Part shown: positions 3,505-15,563 of the stretch, one piece after another
Layout of the letters: every line of letters begins with the position of its first letter
Numbering within the stretch: position 1 is the stretch's first letter
DNA from: Gammaproteobacteria bacterium
GTDB taxonomy: Bacteria > Pseudomonadota > Gammaproteobacteria > Burkholderiales > Rhodocyclaceae
Direction: 5' to 3'
Assembly: GCA_029289235.1 (NCBI GenBank)
Contig: JARFTZ010000048.1
Coordinates: 1 to 64,000 of the forward strand
Length of the DNA: 64,000 bases
Notes under the pieces: model-generated
The model's input: the letters and a program-made list of their open reading frames with translations, nothing else
What the model was told of the DNA's origin: nothing
The model's database searches: none
Position numbers and translations under genes: made by a program

Positions 3505-3524
3505 TGGAGCGGGTGAAGGGAATC
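3505..3524. other. Presumed attachment site (att) at the tRNA-Gly 3' end
   Basis: Integrases of this family recombine within the last roughly 18-20 bases of tRNA-Gly. This stretch is the 3' end of the tRNA with its CCA, so one end of the element should lie here and the repeat copy beyond the left window edge. No second copy is present in the window, so the exact core cannot be fixed. Confidence 0.5.
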
Positions 3525-3578
3525 GAACCCTCGTATGCAGCTTGGGAAGCTGCCGTTCTACCATTGAACTACACCCGC
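3505..3578 (-). tRNA. glyU: tRNA-Gly (anticodon CCC)
   Basis: The reverse complement folds as a complete 74-base tRNA: acceptor GCGGGTG/CACCCGC, D arm GTTC/GAAC, anticodon arm GCAGC-TTCCCAA-GCTGC, a 4-base variable loop, T arm GAGGG-TTCGATT-CCCTT, discriminator T and an encoded CCA. Loop positions 34-36 are CCC, so it reads GGG codons. Its 3' end faces the integrase gene. ICEclc/PAGI-2-type elements use tRNA-Gly genes as target. The tRNA is intact because the element supplies or keeps an identical 3' end. Confidence 0.97.
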
Positions 3579-8110: not shown

Positions 8111-8419
8111 ATGAGCTATTTCAAACACCATGTCTTTTTTTGCTGCAACCAGCGGGAAAATGGTGAAAGTTGCTGTAATAACCTTGGCGCAAGCAACGCG
8201 CAGACTTACGCGAAAGACCGGATTGCCGAACTGAAGCTCAAGGGGAAAGGGAAAGTTCGCATCAACAAGGCGGGGTGTCTGGATCGGTGCGACGACGGCC
8301 CCGTTCTCGTCGTCTATCCAGAGGCGGTGTGGTATCAGTACGTTGACACCGACGATATCGAGGAAATCATCCAGGAACACCTGATCCATGGGCGTGTCGT
8401 CGAACGCCTGAAGATCTAG
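8111..8419 (+). CDS. Thioredoxin-like [2Fe-2S] ferredoxin
   Basis: A 102-residue protein of the Shethna-type/thioredoxin-like 2Fe-2S family. Cysteines C11, C12, C21, C22, C56 and C60 are present; the ligand set is expected from C12, C22 or C21, C56 and C60 in KAGCLDRCDDGP, and VVYPEAVWY is the family's beta strand. It should be a small soluble electron carrier. GGAGGATCGGATC directly precedes the ATG. It sits 11 bases before an alpha/beta hydrolase gene and probably shares its transcript. Partner enzymes are not evident from the context. Confidence 0.85.
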   Translation: MSYFKHHVFFCCNQRENGESCCNNLGASNAQTYAKDRIAELKLKGKGKVRINKAGCLDRCDDGPVLVVYPEAVWYQYVDTDDIEEIIQEHLIHGRVVERLKI

Positions 8420-8429
8420 CCCCGACCGC

Positions 8430-9068
8430 ATGAAGCCAAGCACCCGAACGATCGCCATCGACGGCCCGGCAGGCGTTATCGAGACACGCGTCGATTCGCC
8501 GGAAAATCCGCTGGGCATCGCCTTGGTATGCCATCCGCACCCGCTTTTCGGTGGCACCAACGAAAACAAGGTGGTACGCACCGTAGCCAATACACTGACG
8601 CGGCTCGGATATGCCGTGTTCAGCCCGAATTTCCGCGGGACAGGCGCCAGCGAAAGTGTCCACGACGAGGGGCGCGGAGAAACCGAGGACATGCTGGTGG
8701 TCCTCGATGAGGCCAGACGTGCCTTCGGCGAACTGCCGGTCGTGCTTGCCGGCTTTTCGTTCGGCGCCTACGTCCAATCACGCGTTGCCGAAGCACTGGC
8801 CAACGCTGGCCAGCCGGCCCGAAGGCTCATCCTGATCGGCACCGCCGCCGGCCATGTAGAAGGCGCCCGGCACTATGCCACGGCCGCGGTCGCCAAGAAC
8901 ACGCTGGTCATCCATGGCTCGGCAGATACCACGGTTCCGCTCAGCAACGTTCTCGCCTGGGCCGAGCCACTCGATCTTCCGGTCGTCGTCATTCCCGGCG
9001 CAGACCATTTCTTCCACCGCAAGCTGCATGTCATTCGCGACATCATCCTGCGTGCATGGGGTGACTGA
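8430..9068 (+). CDS. Alpha/beta hydrolase (CHPHPLFGGT family)
   Basis: A 212-residue single-domain alpha/beta hydrolase. The nucleophile elbow GFSFG gives S110. D166 (HGSADTTVP) and H193 (GADHFFH) complete a catalytic triad. CHPHPLFGGTNENKV near residue 34 is the hallmark oxyanion-side motif of this small family, which is widespread in proteobacteria and often annotated as a hydrolase or dienelactone-hydrolase-like protein. Substrate unknown. It follows the ferredoxin gene closely and is the last gene before the cobalamin riboswitch. Confidence 0.85.
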   Translation: MKPSTRTIAIDGPAGVIETRVDSPENPLGIALVCHPHPLFGGTNENKVVRTVANTLTRLGYAVFSPNFRGTGASESVHDEGRGETEDMLVVLDEARRAFGELPVVLAGFSFGAYVQSRVAEALANAGQPARRLILIGTAAGHVEGARHYATAAVAKNTLVIHGSADTTVPLSNVLAWAEPLDLPVVVIPGADHFFHRKLHVIRDIILRAWGD

Positions 9069-9127
9069 AAACATGACGGCAGCACCTTGACCCGCCCCGG
9101 ACGGTCGAGGACAATGTGCGCTCCATT

Positions 9128-9290
9128 CGGTTCGACGAAACGGAACACGGTGCAAATCCGTGGCGGGCCCGCCGCTGTATCCGGGGACGAACGCTGCACG
9201 GTCGGCAACGACCAGCCACTGACGGAGATCACTCCGCCGGGAAGGCGCGGCGCTTAGGCTGATCCGGGAGCCAGAAGACGTGTCGAACTG
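9128..9290 (+). promoter_or_regulatory. Cobalamin riboswitch aptamer
   Basis: The stretch carries the conserved cobalamin-aptamer boxes in order: GGAACACGGTGCAAATCC (9142-9159), GGGCCCGCCGCTGTAT (9165-9180), GCCACTG with CCGGGAAGGCG (about 9215-9247), and the B12 box AGCCAGAAGACG (9269-9280). The closing stem P1 pairs CGGTTCGAC (9128-9136) with GTCGAACTG (9282-9290). It sits 96 bases upstream of the cbpA start codon. Such aptamers normally bind adenosyl- or methylcobalamin and lower expression of downstream genes. Confidence 0.92.
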
Positions 9291-9307
9291 AAGCGGAGCT
9301 TTGGCAG

Positions 9308-9364
9308 GGGCTCCGGCTGAAGGCATGCACCCGCGTGCCTTCAGCCGGAGCCCTTTGTATTTTT
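9308..9364 (+). terminator. Intrinsic terminator forming the riboswitch expression platform
   Basis: Positions 9308-9325 pair perfectly with 9336-9353 (18 bp), and three further pairs lead to an ACCC loop. TTTGTATTTTT follows. It lies between the aptamer and the cbpA ribosome binding site, so termination here would switch off the pair. CGGAGC (9294-9299) can pair with GCTCCG (9310-9315) and could act as a short antiterminator. Confidence 0.8.
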
Positions 9365-9385
9365 CATTTTCCCGAGGAGAGGATC

Positions 9386-9532
9386 ATGTCGCAAACCATT
9401 CAAACGCAACCCCGGCAAGCCGCCCGGCCCGCTCAATCAGCCGCCCCGACCATCGCCCTCCGCAAGAGCTGCAACCCGGACGGCATCGGCCTGTCGCACT
9501 ACGTGCTGATGGACAGAAAAGCGGCCAAGTAA
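9386..9532 (+). CDS. cbpA: Modified-peptide precursor (CbpA type)
   Basis: A 48-residue peptide read from ATG 9386, with GAGGAGAGG five bases upstream. The N-terminal half is low-complexity and Q/A/P-rich, as in a leader. The C-terminal half is distinctive and likely the modified core: LRKSCNPDGIGLSHYVLMDR, with one cysteine (C29), one histidine and one tyrosine. The gene ends one base before the radical SAM gene and is preceded by a cobalamin riboswitch. This matches what I recall of the CbpA/CbpB precursor-maturase family defined by comparative genomics. The modification and the function of the product are unknown; a role in cobalamin or cobalt economy is inferred from the riboswitch only. 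Confidence 0.85.
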   Translation: MSQTIQTQPRQAARPAQSAAPTIALRKSCNPDGIGLSHYVLMDRKAAK

Positions 9533-9533
9533 G

Positions 9534-10913
9534 ATGACCGACGCCACTTTCGCGCGGGCCGCTTCCGCCGGCCCGCTGATTCCCGTGGACATCGGCCACG
9601 ACATCTACGCCGCCGTCACCGACCCCAACACCGCTTTCTGGGCGCTTGTCGACAAGACGCGCATCGCCGAATCGACAGCCGAGAGCACGCCGCTGATGCA
9701 GGACTTCCGTACCAAGGCCGAAAGCTTCGCCCGCGAGCTGCACGCATTGCGCTTCGGGTTGACGCCGTCCGGCGTCTACCTCAATCCGACCGAACGCTGC
9801 AACCTCAATTGCACCTACTGCTACCTGCCAGACAAGCAACGCAGCGGCGGCCAGCACATGTCGGAGGACCGGCTGATCGGCGCGCTCGGCAAGCTGCGCG
9901 ACTATTTCCGCTCGGTGATGCCGGAGGGCCGCACACCGCGCGCCATCTTCCACGGCGCCGAACCGCTGATGAACAAGGCGGCGGTCTTCGCGGCGATCGA
10001 GGCGTTCGGCGACGACTTCGCCTTCGGCATCCAGACCAACGGCACGCTGCTCGACCGGGAAGCCGTCGATTTCCTGACGTCGCGCAACGTCAGCATCGGT
10101 CTTTCGCTCGACGGCCCGGTCGCCGGCATCACCGATGCCACGCGCCTGACGTGGGGCGGCAAGAGCGTCCACGACAAGGTCCTGAAGGCGATGGACGCGC
10201 TGCGCGGCTACGGTTCATGGAGCGTGATCACCACCTGCACAACCGAGAATCTGGCGCACCTGACGCGGATGGTCGAACTGTTCCACGCGCATGAAGTACC
10301 GACCTGCATGCTCAATACGCTGCGCTGCACGCTGCCCGGCGCGCGCGGCGTCAAGCCGGCCGACGCCGACATGGGCAAGGCCCTCTTCGCCGCGCTCGAC
10401 CGCACGCACGCGTTGTACCGCGCAACCGGCCGCAAGCTGGTGGTCGCCAACTTCGCCAACATCCTGCTCGCCATCCTGGCGCCGACGGCGCGACGGCTGA
10501 TGTGCGATATCTCGCCGTGCGGTGGCGGACGCGCCTTCTTCGCCCTGGCCGCCGACGGCAGCCTGTATCCGTGCAGCGAGTTCATCGGTCTGCCACGCTT
10601 CAACGGTGGCAACCTGTTCGACGAGGGCGGCGTCAATGCGGCGCTGGCATCCGGCGCTTTCCGCACCGTCACCGCGCGCGACGTCGACACCTTCGCCCCG
10701 TGCGACGACTGCGCGATCCGCCATTTCTGCGGCTCGCCATGCCCGGCCGAAGCGCACGAGATGAACGGCGGCATGGACAGGATCGGCGCCTTCTGCGAGT
10801 TCTACAAGGAGCAGGTCAACTACGCCCTGCGCCTGATCGCCGACGGCAAGGCCGACGATTTCCTGTGGGATGGCTGGGACGCGGACACCGAGACCACCTT
10901 CCTGATGCAGTAA
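9534..10913 (+). CDS. cbpB: Peptide-modifying radical SAM/SPASM enzyme (CbpB type)
   Basis: A 459-residue radical SAM enzyme that should act on the adjacent 48-residue peptide. The SAM-binding cluster motif CNLNCTYC supplies C89, C93 and C96, and the GGEP-like motif is GAEP (141-144). A SPASM-type C-terminal domain carries C324, C329, C347, C390, C393, C399, C403 and C421, enough for two auxiliary 4Fe-4S clusters. The 80 residues before the radical SAM core are a likely peptide-recognition region. The gene starts one base after the cbpA stop with no independent ribosome binding site, so translation is probably coupled. It lacks a B12-binding domain, so the riboswitch link is not because the enzyme itself uses cobalamin. 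Confidence 0.92.
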   Translation: MTDATFARAASAGPLIPVDIGHDIYAAVTDPNTAFWALVDKTRIAESTAESTPLMQDFRTKAESFARELHALRFGLTPSGVYLNPTERCNLNCTYCYLPDKQRSGGQHMSEDRLIGALGKLRDYFRSVMPEGRTPRAIFHGAEPLMNKAAVFAAIEAFGDDFAFGIQTNGTLLDREAVDFLTSRNVSIGLSLDGPVAGITDATRLTWGGKSVHDKVLKAMDALRGYGSWSVITTCTTENLAHLTRMVELFHAHEVPTCMLNTLRCTLPGARGVKPADADMGKALFAALDRTHALYRATGRKLVVANFANILLAILAPTARRLMCDISPCGGGRAFFALAADGSLYPCSEFIGLPRFNGGNLFDEGGVNAALASGAFRTVTARDVDTFAPCDDCAIRHFCGSPCPAEAHEMNGGMDRIGAFCEFYKEQVNYALRLIADGKADDFLWDGWDADTETTFLMQ

Positions 10914-10923
10914 GGCTACATTC

Positions 10924-10961
10924 AAAAAAAAACGGGGCAGTGACTCGCGTCACCGCCCCGT
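10924..10961 (-). terminator. Terminator of the oxidoreductase operon, shared with cbpAB
   Basis: ACGGGGC and GCCCCGT flank GTGAC-TCGC-GTCAC, giving a 12-bp stem with one mismatch. On the minus strand the hairpin is followed by nine T residues, a textbook terminator for the operon ending at 10982. In the plus direction the stem could also stop cbpAB transcripts, but only two T follow. Confidence 0.85.
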
Positions 10962-10981
10962 TCAACTTCACGCAACGAGGA

Positions 10982-12604
10982 TCAGTTGTTTTCCGGCACC
11001 ATGTTGATCGCGCCGCACGGGCATTCCGACACGCAGAGGCCGCAGCCCTTGCAGTAGTCGTAGTTGAACTGGAAGCCCTTGCCCGGGCCGAGCTTGATCA
11101 CCGCATTGTCCGGACAGACGCCGTAGCAGTTGTCGCACTCGAAGCAGTTGCCGCATGACAGGCAACGGCGTGCCTCGAACAGCGCATTGGTTTCGTCAAG
11201 CCCGCCCTGGACTTCCTCGAACGTCGATTGACGACGGATGATGTCAAGCATCGGCCGCACGGTTTTCGGCGCATCCGAGTAATACCAGGTATTGAGGCGT
11301 TCGAATGTGGCAACCGGCGGCTTCGGCGGCGCGACGTAGGTGATCCCGCGCAGCCAGGCGTCAATGTTCTTCGCCGCTTTCTTGCCGTGGCCGACGCCGA
11401 CCGTGATGTTGCGCTCGGTCGGCACCATGTCGCCGCCAGCGAAGATGCCGGCATGACCGGTCATCATGTTGGCGTCGACCTTGACCACGCCGTCGGTAAC
11501 CTCCAGGCCCGGGACGCCTTCAAGCAGTCCGAGGTCGACGTCCTGACCAAGAGCCAGAACGACCGAGTCGGCTTCGAGCGTCTCGATTTCGCCGGTCGGC
11601 TGCGGGAAGCCGTTGGCGTCGAGCTCCATCTTCTCGACGGTGATCGAAGCGTCGCCGGCTTTCTTGATCGTGGACAACCACTTGATCATCACACCCTCCT
11701 GCATCGCCTCTTCGACCTCGAAGTCGTGTGCCGGCATCTTGTCGCGGGTGCGGCGATAGACGATGATCGGCTCGGCGCCCATGCGCTTGGCCGTACGCGC
11801 CACGTCGATGGCCGTGTTGCCGCCGCCGTAGACCACCACGCGGCGGCCGAGCATCGGCTTCTCTTCGCCTTCCATGCTGCGCAACACCGAAACCGCGTCG
11901 ACGATCTTCGAGACCGCGCCGGCCGGGATGTTGGTCCGCTTGCCGATATGCGCGCCGACGGCCAGGAAGGCCGCATCGAAGTTGCCGGCCTTCATCGTTT
12001 CCTGGATGTTATCGACCTTGGCATTGAGCTTCACCTCGACGCCCATCTCGACCACGCGCTGCATTTCAGCGTCAAGCACTTCACGCGGCAGGCGGTACTT
12101 GGGAATCCCGAAGCGCATCATCCCGCCGAGCATCGGCCCGGCTTCATACACGGTCACGCGGTGGCCGAGACGGCGCAGGTGGTAGGCCGCCGACATGCCC
12201 GACGGGCCGCCGCCGACGATCAGCACGTGCTTGCCCGATTCGGCAGCAGGTTGGACCAGTTTCCACTTGCGCTTGATTGCCTCGTCACCGAGGAAGCGCT
12301 CGACAGAGTTGATCCCCACCGCCGAATCGAGGTTGGCGCGGTTGCAGGCACCCTCGCAGGTGTGATAGCAGACCCGGCCCATGATCGCCGGGAAGGGATT
12401 GTCCTTGGTCAGATGCTGCCAGGCTTTTTCATAGTTGCCTGACTCGGCGTGGAACAGCCAGCCCTGGATATCTTCGCCCGCCGGGCACTGGTTGTTGCAG
12501 GGAGGCAGGCGGTTCACGTAAACCGGCCGCTCGGTACGCCACGTGCCGGTACGGTTGGCGAGCGACGAGCCCGGGTCCAGGGTAATGGCAAAAGGCTTGT
12601 TCAT
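10982..12604 (-). CDS. NAD(P)H-linked FeS/FAD subunit of a 2-oxoacid:acceptor oxidoreductase
   Basis: A 540-residue flavoprotein of the GltD/PadH type fused to a ferredoxin. Residues 36-87 hold C36, C40, C79, C83 and C87 for the N-terminal clusters. GGGPSG (131-136) is the FAD-binding fold, and YGGGNTAIDVART further on is the NAD(P)-binding fold. The C-terminus carries two 4Fe-4S sites, CLSCGNCFECDNC...CP and CKGCGLCVSECPC. It should pass electrons between NAD(P)(H) and the thiamine enzyme encoded upstream. Its ATG overlaps the beta-subunit stop by one base (TGATG), so the four genes form one operon. The arrangement recalls phenylglyoxylate:NAD oxidoreductase (PadH); the true electron partner is not shown by sequence. 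Confidence 0.85.
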   Translation of the reverse strand: MNKPFAITLDPGSSLANRTGTWRTERPVYVNRLPPCNNQCPAGEDIQGWLFHAESGNYEKAWQHLTKDNPFPAIMGRVCYHTCEGACNRANLDSAVGINSVERFLGDEAIKRKWKLVQPAAESGKHVLIVGGGPSGMSAAYHLRRLGHRVTVYEAGPMLGGMMRFGIPKYRLPREVLDAEMQRVVEMGVEVKLNAKVDNIQETMKAGNFDAAFLAVGAHIGKRTNIPAGAVSKIVDAVSVLRSMEGEEKPMLGRRVVVYGGGNTAIDVARTAKRMGAEPIIVYRRTRDKMPAHDFEVEEAMQEGVMIKWLSTIKKAGDASITVEKMELDANGFPQPTGEIETLEADSVVLALGQDVDLGLLEGVPGLEVTDGVVKVDANMMTGHAGIFAGGDMVPTERNITVGVGHGKKAAKNIDAWLRGITYVAPPKPPVATFERLNTWYYSDAPKTVRPMLDIIRRQSTFEEVQGGLDETNALFEARRCLSCGNCFECDNCYGVCPDNAVIKLGPGKGFQFNYDYCKGCGLCVSECPCGAINMVPENN

Positions 12605-13617
12605 CAGTTCGCCTCCTTCTCAAGCAAATCGTATTTGCGGATGTTCTTGTCGGCTATCGCTTGCAGCCGGGCGATGGTATCGACGGCCGGCGTCTTGCCG
12701 AACAGGTGGGCAAAGCGCTTCTGCGGCCGCAGATATTCTTCAACCGGCAGCAAGCGGCGGATCTTGGTCGAGTGGGTCAGTTCGCCCCGTTCGGCTTCGA
12801 AGACCGGGAACAACCCGGTTTCCTTGGCGAGACGCGACATGCGCAGCGTCTCGTCGGACGCGGTTCCCCAGCCAAGCGGGCACGGCACGAGGATATGAAT
12901 GTAGCGCGCGCCGCGGAAGGTCATCGCCTTGCGCACCTTGTATTCGAGATCGCGCAGGTCGGCCACCGTCGCCGTCGCCACGTAGGGAATCTCGTGCGCC
13001 ATGGCGATCGCCGGGACGAACTTGCCTTGCCCGAACGGGTTGCCGGGCTCCGGGCCGACCGGCATGGTCGTCGCCGTGCGCGCCGCCGGCGGCGTCGCCG
13101 AGCTGCGCTGGATGCCGGTGTTCATGTAGCCGCCGTTGTCGTAACAGATGTACAGCACATCGTCGTTGCGCTCGAACATCCCGGACAGGCAGCCGAAACC
13201 GATGTCGGTCGTGCCGCCGTCGCCGCCCTGGGCGACGACACGCACATCGCCCGAGACGCCCTTCTGACGCTTGACCTTCAGCGCGGCCGAGACGCCCGTG
13301 GCCACTGCAGCTGCGTTGCCGAACAGCGAGTGAATCCAGGGCACCTGCCACGAAGTTTCCGGATACGGGGTGGAAAACACCTCCAGGCAACCGGTGGCGT
13401 TGACGGCGACCATCTGCTTGTCGGTCGCGTGCATTGCCGCATCGATCGCGTAGCGTGCACCCAGCGCCTCGCCGCAGCCCTGGCAGGCGCGGTGGCCGGA
13501 GTTCAGGGAGTTGGTCCGCTCCATGTTGGCTTGCACGCTGCGCTGATCCGGCGCCAGCAAACGGTTGCCGACAGTGAAGGTACCGGTCTGGTAGAACTTG
13601 ACGGGTTGAAAACTCAT
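12604..13617 (-). CDS. porB: 2-oxoacid:acceptor oxidoreductase, beta (thiamine-binding) subunit
   Basis: A 337-residue protein that binds thiamine diphosphate and a 4Fe-4S cluster. Cluster cysteines are visible in HRACQGCGE (C45, C48), NATGCLEVF and VPCPLGW. The thiamine motif is GGDGGTTDIGF followed by YDNGGYMNTG. Together with the alpha and gamma subunits it forms the heteromeric enzyme oxidising a 2-oxoacid and CoA to acyl-CoA and CO2, or the reverse reductive carboxylation. ATG 13617 was chosen because the family-like sequence starts there (MSFQPVKFY). Pyruvate, 2-oxoisovalerate and phenylglyoxylate are all possible substrates. Confidence 0.85.
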   Translation of the reverse strand: MSFQPVKFYQTGTFTVGNRLLAPDQRSVQANMERTNSLNSGHRACQGCGEALGARYAIDAAMHATDKQMVAVNATGCLEVFSTPYPETSWQVPWIHSLFGNAAAVATGVSAALKVKRQKGVSGDVRVVAQGGDGGTTDIGFGCLSGMFERNDDVLYICYDNGGYMNTGIQRSSATPPAARTATTMPVGPEPGNPFGQGKFVPAIAMAHEIPYVATATVADLRDLEYKVRKAMTFRGARYIHILVPCPLGWGTASDETLRMSRLAKETGLFPVFEAERGELTHSTKIRRLLPVEEYLRPQKRFAHLFGKTPAVDTIARLQAIADKNIRKYDLLEKEAN

Positions 13618-13627
13618 GGTCGTGTCC

Positions 13628-14884
13628 TCAGCTGTGTTGGGCGACATGGCTGCTGCCGACGTCGCGCAGGATGTTCTCGGCAACCGGGCCGGAACGGCGC
13701 TTCTGGCGCTCGCGTTCCAACTGCTTGTTGACGATGTTCCAGTCCAGGTCAAGGAAGGTCAGCGGCGGAAGCTCGTCGCCCAACGCCTTGTCGAAGATGG
13801 CCCGCAGGGATTTCTTGAGGATCGGACGCCCGCCCAGGCCGGCGATGACCGTGTAATCCTTGACGCTGAGACCATCCATCGCCGTCCGAACGTCGGTCGC
13901 AACGACACCGCCGATGCCGACCGAAAACGCCTTCTCGACGACGACGATGCGCTTGGCACCTTTCAGGGCCTCGCGCACCGCTTCCAGCGGGAAGGGACGG
14001 AAGGAGATGATGCCGAGAACGCCGATCTTCACGCCCTGCTCGCGCATTTCGTCGACGGTGTCCTTGATCGTGCCGAGCACGGAGCCCATCGCGATGACGA
14101 CCGTTTCCGCGTCCTCGAGACAGTAGCCGCGCACCAGACCACCGGAGTCGCGGCCGAACCCCGCCTTGAATTCCTCGGCGATTTTCGGGATCAACCCCAG
14201 GGCGCGGAGCTGCTTCTCGTGCTCCAGATAGCGCACTTCCGCGAACGCTTCCGGCCCGACCATCGCCCCGATCGACACCGGATCGGCCGGGTCGAGCACC
14301 TGACGCGGTTCGTACGGCGGCAGGAAGGCATCGACCTGCTCCTGCGTCGGGATATCGACACGCTCGTAGGCGTGGGTGAGGATGAAACCGTCCATGCACA
14401 CCATCACCGGCAAGCTCAACTCCTCGGCCAGCTTGAAGGCCTGGATGTGCAGATCGAGCGCTTCCTGGTTGGTCTCGGCAAAAAGCTGGAGCCAGCCACT
14501 GTCGCGCTGCGAGATCGAATCCGAATGATCGTTCCAGATGTTGATCGGCGCGCCGATCGCCCGGTTGGCCACCGTCATCACGATCGGCAAACCGAGACCG
14601 GACGCGTTGTAAACCGCTTCGACCATGAACAGCAAACCTTGCGACGCGGTGGCGGTGTAGGTTCGCGCACCGGCGGCCGAGGAACCGATCGCCACGCTCA
14701 TGGCCGCAAATTCGGATTCAACGTTGATGAATTCGCAATTCTGCACCTCGCCCGCCTTGACCATCTCGCCGATGCCTTCGACGATGTGCGTCTGCGGGGA
14801 AATCGGATAGGCGCAGATCACTTCCGGCCGGCACAGCGCGACCGCCTCGGCAACGGCGTGCGAGCCCTCGATTTGCTTAAGCAT
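13628..14884 (-). CDS. porA: 2-oxoacid:acceptor oxidoreductase, alpha subunit
   Basis: A 418-residue subunit with the pyrimidine-binding thiamine domain at the N-terminus: SHAVAEAVALCRPEVICAYP, then the catalytic region VESEFAAMSVAIGSSAAGAR and TATASQGLLFMVE. It has a central domain and a transketolase-C-like domain (VLGIISFRPFPLEAVREAL). It pairs with the beta subunit to complete the active site. ATG 14884 overlaps the gamma-subunit stop by eight bases; the region further upstream is not family-like. Ten bases separate its stop from the beta gene. Confidence 0.87.
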   Translation of the reverse strand: MLKQIEGSHAVAEAVALCRPEVICAYPISPQTHIVEGIGEMVKAGEVQNCEFINVESEFAAMSVAIGSSAAGARTYTATASQGLLFMVEAVYNASGLGLPIVMTVANRAIGAPINIWNDHSDSISQRDSGWLQLFAETNQEALDLHIQAFKLAEELSLPVMVCMDGFILTHAYERVDIPTQEQVDAFLPPYEPRQVLDPADPVSIGAMVGPEAFAEVRYLEHEKQLRALGLIPKIAEEFKAGFGRDSGGLVRGYCLEDAETVVIAMGSVLGTIKDTVDEMREQGVKIGVLGIISFRPFPLEAVREALKGAKRIVVVEKAFSVGIGGVVATDVRTAMDGLSVKDYTVIAGLGGRPILKKSLRAIFDKALGDELPPLTFLDLDWNIVNKQLERERQKRRSGPVAENILRDVGSSHVAQHS

Positions 14885-15470
14885 TGGCAACCTCCTTGCT
14901 GAGGTCCTTGGCACGCGCCAGGACCATGTTGAACGCCTCCGTCGCCGCTGCGACGTTGCCTTGCGCGACCTTTCCGGAGAATTTGGCGTTGATCGCCTTG
15001 CACACCGATTCCAGCTTCAGCATCCCGGAAAGCGCGGCGAACCCGGCCAGCAGCGGCACGTTCGGCACGGGGCGGCCGACGTGCTTGAGCCCCAAGTCGA
15101 TCGCCGGCAGCGTGCACAGGCGATTGGCAGGGAAGTCACGCACCAAGTCCGCGATGCCCAATTCTTCAAACGTGTGCTTGGTGTTGATCAGGACGAAACC
15201 ATCCTTCTTCAGGCCGGCGAACACATCGATCTGACGAAGCAAGGTCGGATCCTGGATGATCAAGGCATCCGGCATCATGATCGGCTCACGCAAGCGGATC
15301 TCGCGATCAGCGACACGGCAGAAAGCCACCACCGGCGCTCCTGTCCGCTCCGAACCAAAACTCGGGAAGGCTTGTGCATGACGCCCTTCCTCGAATGCGG
15401 CGATCGACAACATTTCCGCCGCCGTCACCACCCCCTGGCCTCCGCGGCCGTGAATACGCACTTCGAACAT
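14877..15470 (-). CDS. porG: 2-oxoacid:acceptor oxidoreductase, gamma subunit
   Basis: A 197-residue gamma subunit beginning MFEVRIHGRGGQGVVTAAE, the family hallmark, with FPSFGSERTGAPV following. It is the first gene of the operon gamma-alpha-beta-NAD(P)H subunit; GGAGAGTGT precedes ATG 15470. No separate delta (ferredoxin) gene is present, and the ferredoxin domain at the end of the NAD(P)H subunit may replace it. A good sigma-70 promoter is found about 100 bases upstream. Confidence 0.9.
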   Translation of the reverse strand: MFEVRIHGRGGQGVVTAAEMLSIAAFEEGRHAQAFPSFGSERTGAPVVAFCRVADREIRLREPIMMPDALIIQDPTLLRQIDVFAGLKKDGFVLINTKHTFEELGIADLVRDFPANRLCTLPAIDLGLKHVGRPVPNVPLLAGFAALSGMLKLESVCKAINAKFSGKVAQGNVAAATEAFNMVLARAKDLSKEVANA

Positions 15471-15563
15471 ACACTCTCCGATCCGTTGATTATCGAAGCC
15501 ACCCCACCCACAACCCACCGACTTGATGAGTTAATGGAACTAAACGATGATGGTTAAGAACTA

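Follow-up and report, generated by a model that had tools for sequence, protein, structure and literature searches.

A cobalamin riboswitch ahead of cbpA and cbpB

The DNA analysed here, a stretch of 64,000 nucleotides from a bacterium of the family Rhodocyclaceae (contig JARFTZ010000048.1, hereafter the window), carries on its + strand a cobalamin aptamer, a terminator, the precursor peptide gene cbpA and the gene cbpB, which encodes a radical S-adenosylmethionine (SAM) enzyme, in this order (Table 1). The observation itself, a switch followed by a peptide and an enzyme, is confirmed, and the arrangement goes beyond chance, because both proteins far exceed the curated cut-offs of their families and the layout recurs in relatives under ten phylum labels. 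An earlier note, made from the letters, had described a complete cobalamin aptamer and a 48-residue peptide containing a single Cys, a single His and a single Tyr, separated from the enzyme gene by one base. The RF00174 model is matched over its full length, beginning 17 bases ahead of the noted 9128, and the coordinates of the open reading frames (ORFs) agree with the rest: the cbpA stop ends at 9532 and the cbpB ATG lies at 9534. A ribosome site of the GAGGAG type stands ahead of the cbpA ATG at 9386. As a whole, the interpretation given in that note is partly supported.

Regarding the leader, it holds a hairpin that had not been mentioned before, placed between the aptamer and cbpA and followed by a T-rich tail; the surrounding stretch (9290-9370) folds at -54 kcal/mol, with a z of -8.2 over 200 shuffles. 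In the predicted fold of the full leader, the lowest pairs of P1 join GCUCC (9120-9124) to GGAGC (9295-9299), and the terminator is formed. For a transcript ending at 9316, the predicted pairing of 9294-9302 with 9307-9315 occupies the 5' arm of the terminator, and this smaller hairpin would compete both with the outer P1 pairs and with that arm. Such a layout would be the usual one of a switch turned off by its ligand, a direction read from the anatomy. Thus, bound adenosylcobalamin would hold the P1 stem and free the terminator arm, stopping transcription, while without B12 the 9294-9315 hairpin would oppose the terminator and cbpAB would be made. The earlier idea that the peptide is wanted when cobalamin is low fits this predicted terminator and antiterminator, and the locus is almost certainly a riboswitch-repressed cassette of a peptide and its maturase.

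Table 1. Features of the cbpAB locus, in positions of the window.
Feature	Position	Strand	Evidence or remark
Cobalamin riboswitch aptamer (RF00174)	9111-9302	+	84.6 bits, full model 1-189 (covariance model; gathering score 31.5, E 2.1e-19)
Putative antiterminator hairpin	9294-9315 (9294-9302 with 9307-9315)	+	Fold prediction only
Intrinsic-terminator-like hairpin, 20-bp stem, then TTTGTATTTT	9308-9353	+	
cbpA, 48-residue precursor peptide	9386-9532	+	TIGR04164, 56.3 bits (cut-off 35), residues 22-46
CbpA conserved core (residues 22-46): strand-forming TIALRKS, C, NPDGIGLSHYVLMDRK	9449-9523	+	
cbpB, 459-residue radical SAM/SPASM peptide maturase	9534-10913	+	TIGR04163, 715.8 bits (cut-off 375)
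CbpB N-terminal strand-and-helix region (residues 16-74), presumed peptide-recognition domain	9579-9755	+	Aligns with the start of CteB
CX3CX2C for the SAM-binding [4Fe-4S] cluster (Cys 89, 93, 96)	9798-9821	+	
SPASM region (Cys 329, 347, 390, 393, 399, 403, 421)	10518-10796	+	Invariant Cys; TIGR04085
Terminator-like hairpin 3' of cbpB	10930-10963	-	End of convergent gene; no + strand T-run reported

The peptide core and its probable maturase

The names CbpA and CbpB, given in the earlier note, are those returned by the family-model search. CbpA covers all 25 positions of TIGR04164 ("modified peptide precursor CbpA") and CbpB covers positions 3-428 of the 428 of TIGR04163 ("peptide-modifying radical SAM enzyme CbpB"), both above the equivalog cut-offs and with no difference in kind from these NCBIfam families. 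No paper on CbpA/CbpB, and no published product or function, was found in the literature searched; as far as the text of PMC5682303 is shown, its "CbpA" string matches trace to journal digital object identifiers, and the radical SAM mentions in the available part of PMC9600662 are references. The pair belongs to a genuine family that has a name but no study in that literature, and its switch is intact here.

An alignment (A1) against genome contigs gave at least 390 stretches encoding a relative, of which the best 80, with 58-87% identity, are named here as the closest ones and not as a census. The peptide gene adjoins cbpB in all 80 (79 by script and L114 by inspection), and of the 121 loci examined in total, the one without a CbpA gene is L064, which a contig end cuts short. 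The 80 distinct cores drawn from 117 loci show no variation at R(-6), C(-3), G(1), G(3), L(4), S(5) or H(6); position 8 is always I or V, and position 7 is Tyr in 78 and Phe in two (L135 and L148). The stretch from R..C onward, for which the earlier note had proposed an alignment, is thus close to invariant, and the N-terminal part of CbpA varies in length and composition across the relatives. Two Sedimenticola precursors, L118 (9479-9965) and L119 (2077-2464), contain two full cores each, suggesting that the core is the functional unit. In two AlphaFold fusion models, the CbpA segment before the Cys is modelled as a strand.

In CbpB, the cysteines of the CX3CX2C motif are invariant in 65 aligned rows, as are nine cysteines past residue 260 (265, 324, 329, 347, 390, 393, 399, 403 and 421), where the earlier description had counted three SAM-cluster and eight SPASM-type cysteines. 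The SPASM character is recognised by TIGR04085 at 48.6 bits (cut-off 27), and the Pfam SPASM model reaches 17.4 bits, under its cut-off of 21.5. Scanning against Pfam at E values up to 1 yields just Radical_SAM and this sub-threshold SPASM match, with no B12-binding domain, in agreement with the earlier reading. The class of B12-dependent radical SAM methylases, which is defined by a cobalamin-binding domain, was rejected for CbpB on the same scan.

The substrate and the regulation of CteB, a SCIFF-type peptide maturase, are of another kind than those of CbpB, and the likeness between the two enzymes is in fold only. CteB (PDB 5why and 5wgg) is the closest solved fold to the CbpB model, at about 21% identity, and residues 60 onward of the model line up with CteB from its residue 1; the region of residues 16-74 is presumed to recognise the peptide. 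The next-best NCBIfam models for CbpB are the ranthipeptide maturase PapB (NF047865, 113.2 bits, far under the cut-off of 340) and the dynobactin maturase DynA (NF041298, 109.6 bits, far under 450). A ranthipeptide-type Cys-X2-Asp thioether was rejected as the defining chemistry, since the acidic position, ahead of G(1), is not conserved (50 of the 80 cores have Asp there and 11 have Glu). Dynobactin, an exported antibiotic, has a crosslink at a His, a residue that is invariant in CbpA. PqqA/PqqE and the mycofactocin system likewise combine a short precursor with a SPASM radical SAM enzyme, leading to intracellular redox cofactors; unlike them, CbpA has a Tyr that is not strictly invariant, and no PqqD, protease or oxidase partner recurs in the named loci. 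A Tyr-derived cofactor similar to mycofactocin or pyrroloquinoline quinone (PQQ) is disfavoured by the two cores with Phe, which weakens the substitute-cofactor role proposed in the earlier note.

Considering these features, CbpB would act as a SPASM radical SAM maturase, holding the IAxRKx segment ahead of the Cys as a strand on its N-terminal domain and placing at least one radical crosslink into the invariant C-x3-GxGLSH stretch, most likely a thioether formed by the Cys or a link through the His. CbpA is very probably modified covalently by CbpB.

Riboswitches, neighbours and host genomes of the relatives

Whole-genome RF00174 matches were mapped onto the named loci, 78 of which could be tested, the other two being too short. 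An aptamer lies directly upstream of the pair in 67 of the 78, so that this check, proposed in the earlier note, came out in favour of that note, and all 67 aptamer sequences contain the GCCACTG box with at most one mismatch. Rfam was also run directly on 20 more loci, several of them from the same genomes, and the aptamer came up in every one. A terminator-like hairpin precedes the peptide core in 59 of the 67 relatives with an adjacent aptamer, with at least 15 pairs in 49, as counted by a lenient pattern and without shuffles. Five other loci (L096, L097, L101, L115 and L154) have a Rfam-confirmed aptamer on the same strand 3-6 kb upstream, and cobalamin-synthesis genes adjoin their pair; as far as crude ORF picking allows, the chain of same-strand genes from aptamer to cbpA is clearly unbroken, bar small overlapping ORFs, in L115, L097 and L154, and not clearly so in L096 and L101. 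Immediately 5' of the L101 aptamer, a group II intron D1-D4 match (94.1 bits) occupies L101:5104-5242.

The family is patchily distributed. Counting genomes with TIGR04163 over its cut-off, and including the window's own genome every time, there is one carrier among 369 genomes of a class sample (the window's own), 28 among 297 of the host family and 11 among 398 of a phylum sample. The tree of relatives spans ten phylum labels with 13 label changes against a minimum of nine, the labels being taken from submitters' titles, some of which may be wrong, as many relatives are metagenome bins. In this tree, the window's sequence clusters with Propionivibrio soli (support 98/87). The window's cbp aptamer has a median identity of 0.59 to the cbp aptamers of distant relatives (27 loci) and identities of 0.46-0.50 to the other five aptamers in the same genome, which fits a transfer of switch and genes as one cassette. 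The actinomycete cbp aptamers, with 0.48-0.53 identity to that of the window, do not follow this pattern. Two cbpAB copies occur in the genomes of Azoarcus sp. Aa7 (L104 and L106), SKS4.bin46 (L099 and L102) and BE2011_69_25 (L101 and L107); in the last of these, cobalamin genes adjoin one copy and the second follows an aptamer of its own. In addition, a Methylovirgula plasmid (L156, 14807-19756) carries cbpAB beside a further radical SAM gene, with pqqA, pqqD and pqqE following a few kb later.

Neighbouring genes were clustered and the cluster representatives named by NCBIfam. The recurring ones mostly belong to corrin synthesis: cobB, cobT, cobQ, cbiF, a cbiX-like chelatase, cbiET, cobA, cobU, cobC, cbiD, cbiB, cbiC and bluB. 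Of the 72 named loci with more than 4 kb of flanking sequence, 24 have at least one B12-synthesis gene within 9 kb of the pair, and 19 have one on the same strand; over all 80 loci the number is 25. In four loci, cbiX is directly 3' of cbpB. All of this was counted without a chance control. Further recurrent neighbours, among them an ABC ATPase and GGDEF proteins, seem incidental. Apart from the cbp aptamer, the host genome has five aptamers, which precede genes for a BluB-like nitroreductase, CbiQ with an ABC ATPase, CbiM, CbiZ and a TonB-dependent receptor.

The gene content of carriers was compared within the host family, taking 28 of its 29 carriers (G531, a contig-end fragment, was left out) and 40 of its 268 non-carriers. 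CbiD is present in 24 of 28 carriers versus 12 of 40 non-carriers (p 6e-6) or, by genus, in 9 of 11 versus 8 of 34, the host genus being excluded from the non-carriers (p 0.001). CobB, whose matches can include related amidases, is found in all 28 carriers versus 25 of 40 non-carriers (p 0.0002). There is no difference for CobN, of the late insertion route (1 of 28, below the cut-off, versus 4 of 40). Outside the host family, CbiD occurs in eight of ten phylum carriers and CobB in four of five tested, and the 39 named carrier genomes, mostly bins, have CobB in 30 and CbiD in 24. Carriers are therefore mostly corrin makers of the early-cobalt type.

Around the pair in the window, genes for a thioredoxin-like 2Fe-2S ferredoxin and an alpha/beta hydrolase (8111-9068) end just 5' of the aptamer, and such a hydrolase recurs close to cbpAB in a few relatives (neighbour cluster 27). 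Past cbpB, a convergent - strand operon (10982-15518) encodes what look, from the translations, like an FAD/ferredoxin oxidoreductase subunit and 2-oxoacid:ferredoxin oxidoreductase subunits. A transfer RNA gene lies at 3508-3578 on the - strand (72.9 bits).

A possible part in cobalt or corrinoid supply

The reading that we favour, with roughly even confidence, is that of a radical SAM-modified peptide made at low B12 that contributes within the cell to the supply of cobalt or corrinoids. Taken apart, a role in this supply rather than elsewhere is somewhat probable, and direct binding of Co(II) or a corrinoid by the peptide is less likely than not. The finished peptide would be kept in the cell, where it would bind Co(II) or a corrinoid and aid B12 synthesis or salvage during shortage. 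The cobalt or corrinoid carrier suggested in the earlier note is possible, and the B12-synthesis neighbourhoods and the genome profile support it further. A candidate functional parallel, in the supply of cobalt to a chelatase, is CobW, which differs in being a GTPase. In the accessible part of PMC7689651, CobW is described as the cobalt chaperone for CobNST of the late-insertion route, and the early chelatase CbiK as both supplying and inserting cobalt, so that a separate chaperone would not be required there.

Several observations weigh against the favoured reading. There is no upstream aptamer in six of the 78 testable loci (L083, L126, L128, L131, L133 and L141), nor on the plasmid L156, and a permissive scan of L083, L128, L133, L131 and L156 still did not find one; L141 nonetheless adjoins cobalamin genes. 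An internal aptamer of L083, obtained by coordinate mapping, was dropped as the direct scan did not confirm it, and this locus is counted among those without. A terminator-like hairpin is missing from eight of the 67 loci whose aptamer is adjacent. No cobalamin-synthesis gene was found within 9 kb of the pair in the window itself, genes for exporters, proteases or metal transport do not accompany cbpAB, and a chance control is lacking for the neighbour counts. Carriers and controls of the genome profile are not phylogenetically independent, and neither CobB nor CbiD was found in seven of the 39 named carrier genomes, exceptions that may or may not reflect incompleteness. The pair would also be dispensable for the corrin pathway, because non-carriers have CbiD and CobB as well. 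Finally, model confidence is low past the Cys (predicted local distance difference test score, pLDDT, below 50 at residues 31-57), so the models do not locate the crosslinked residues.

Among the alternatives, the modified peptide might be a cofactor or carrier that replaces a B12-dependent function at B12 shortage, as MetE replaces MetH, which we regard as unlikely. Cobalamin riboswitches control B12-independent isozymes, and carriers, none of the 28 having MetE, would profit from another bypass; however, non-carriers of the same family also mostly go without it (4 of 40 have the gene; p 0.14), and with MetE missing alike from all 28 carriers and from 36 of the 40 non-carriers, the comparison is uninformative. 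Moreover, the neighbours are B12-synthesis genes and not B12-dependent enzymes, and Phe in place of Tyr in two cores counts against a tyrosine-derived quinone. Somewhat less credence is given to CbpB cutting or remodelling CbpA into a small molecule used to make corrinoids, for instance a part of the lower ligand or of the nucleotide loop. The lower-pathway genes cobT, cobU, cobC and bluB are indeed among the neighbours, and PQQ and mycofactocin illustrate that peptides can be precursors of small cofactors, but the host genome already has a BluB-like gene under its own aptamer, no protease recurs next to the pair, and the conserved core is about 25 residues long with variable ends and occurs twice in the L118 and L119 precursors.

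Export of the product, as a cobalt-scavenging metallophore or a bacteriocin, seems improbable, as CbpA has no hydrophobic signal segment by eye, neither an exporter nor an immunity gene recurs among the neighbour clusters, and the core is nearly constant across ten phylum labels, unlike an arms-race peptide; this is so despite the riboswitch-controlled TonB-dependent receptor of the host genome and the frequent export of radical SAM-modified peptides as antimicrobials. The least probable explanation is a mobile passenger whose B12 switch is incidental and whose function is unrelated to B12. Its patchy spread in the family and phylum samples, the mixed labels in the tree and the plasmid-borne copy would suit such a passenger, whereas the core is under strong purifying selection and the pair lies repeatedly inside or beside cobalamin operons.

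Returning to cobalt or corrinoid supply, its fullest form would make CbpA the first known case of a ribosomal peptide built to handle cobalt or corrinoids: a crosslinked Cys/His peptide, induced by B12 shortage and moved across phyla with its own riboswitch, that delivers Co(II) to an early cobaltochelatase or holds a corrinoid intermediate, a proposal that we consider doubtful in all its parts together. The parts are ordinary, and their combination is unexplained, conserved and simple to test, comprising a 25-residue core, a one-gene enzyme and a predicted inducer that is known, with Propionivibrio, Aromatoleum and Azospira as cultured carrier genera suited to study. If true, a radical SAM peptide would be retained for internal metal or corrinoid handling instead of being exported as an antibiotic, and B12 physiology would have a missing peptide part, common to B12-making bacteria under ten phylum labels.
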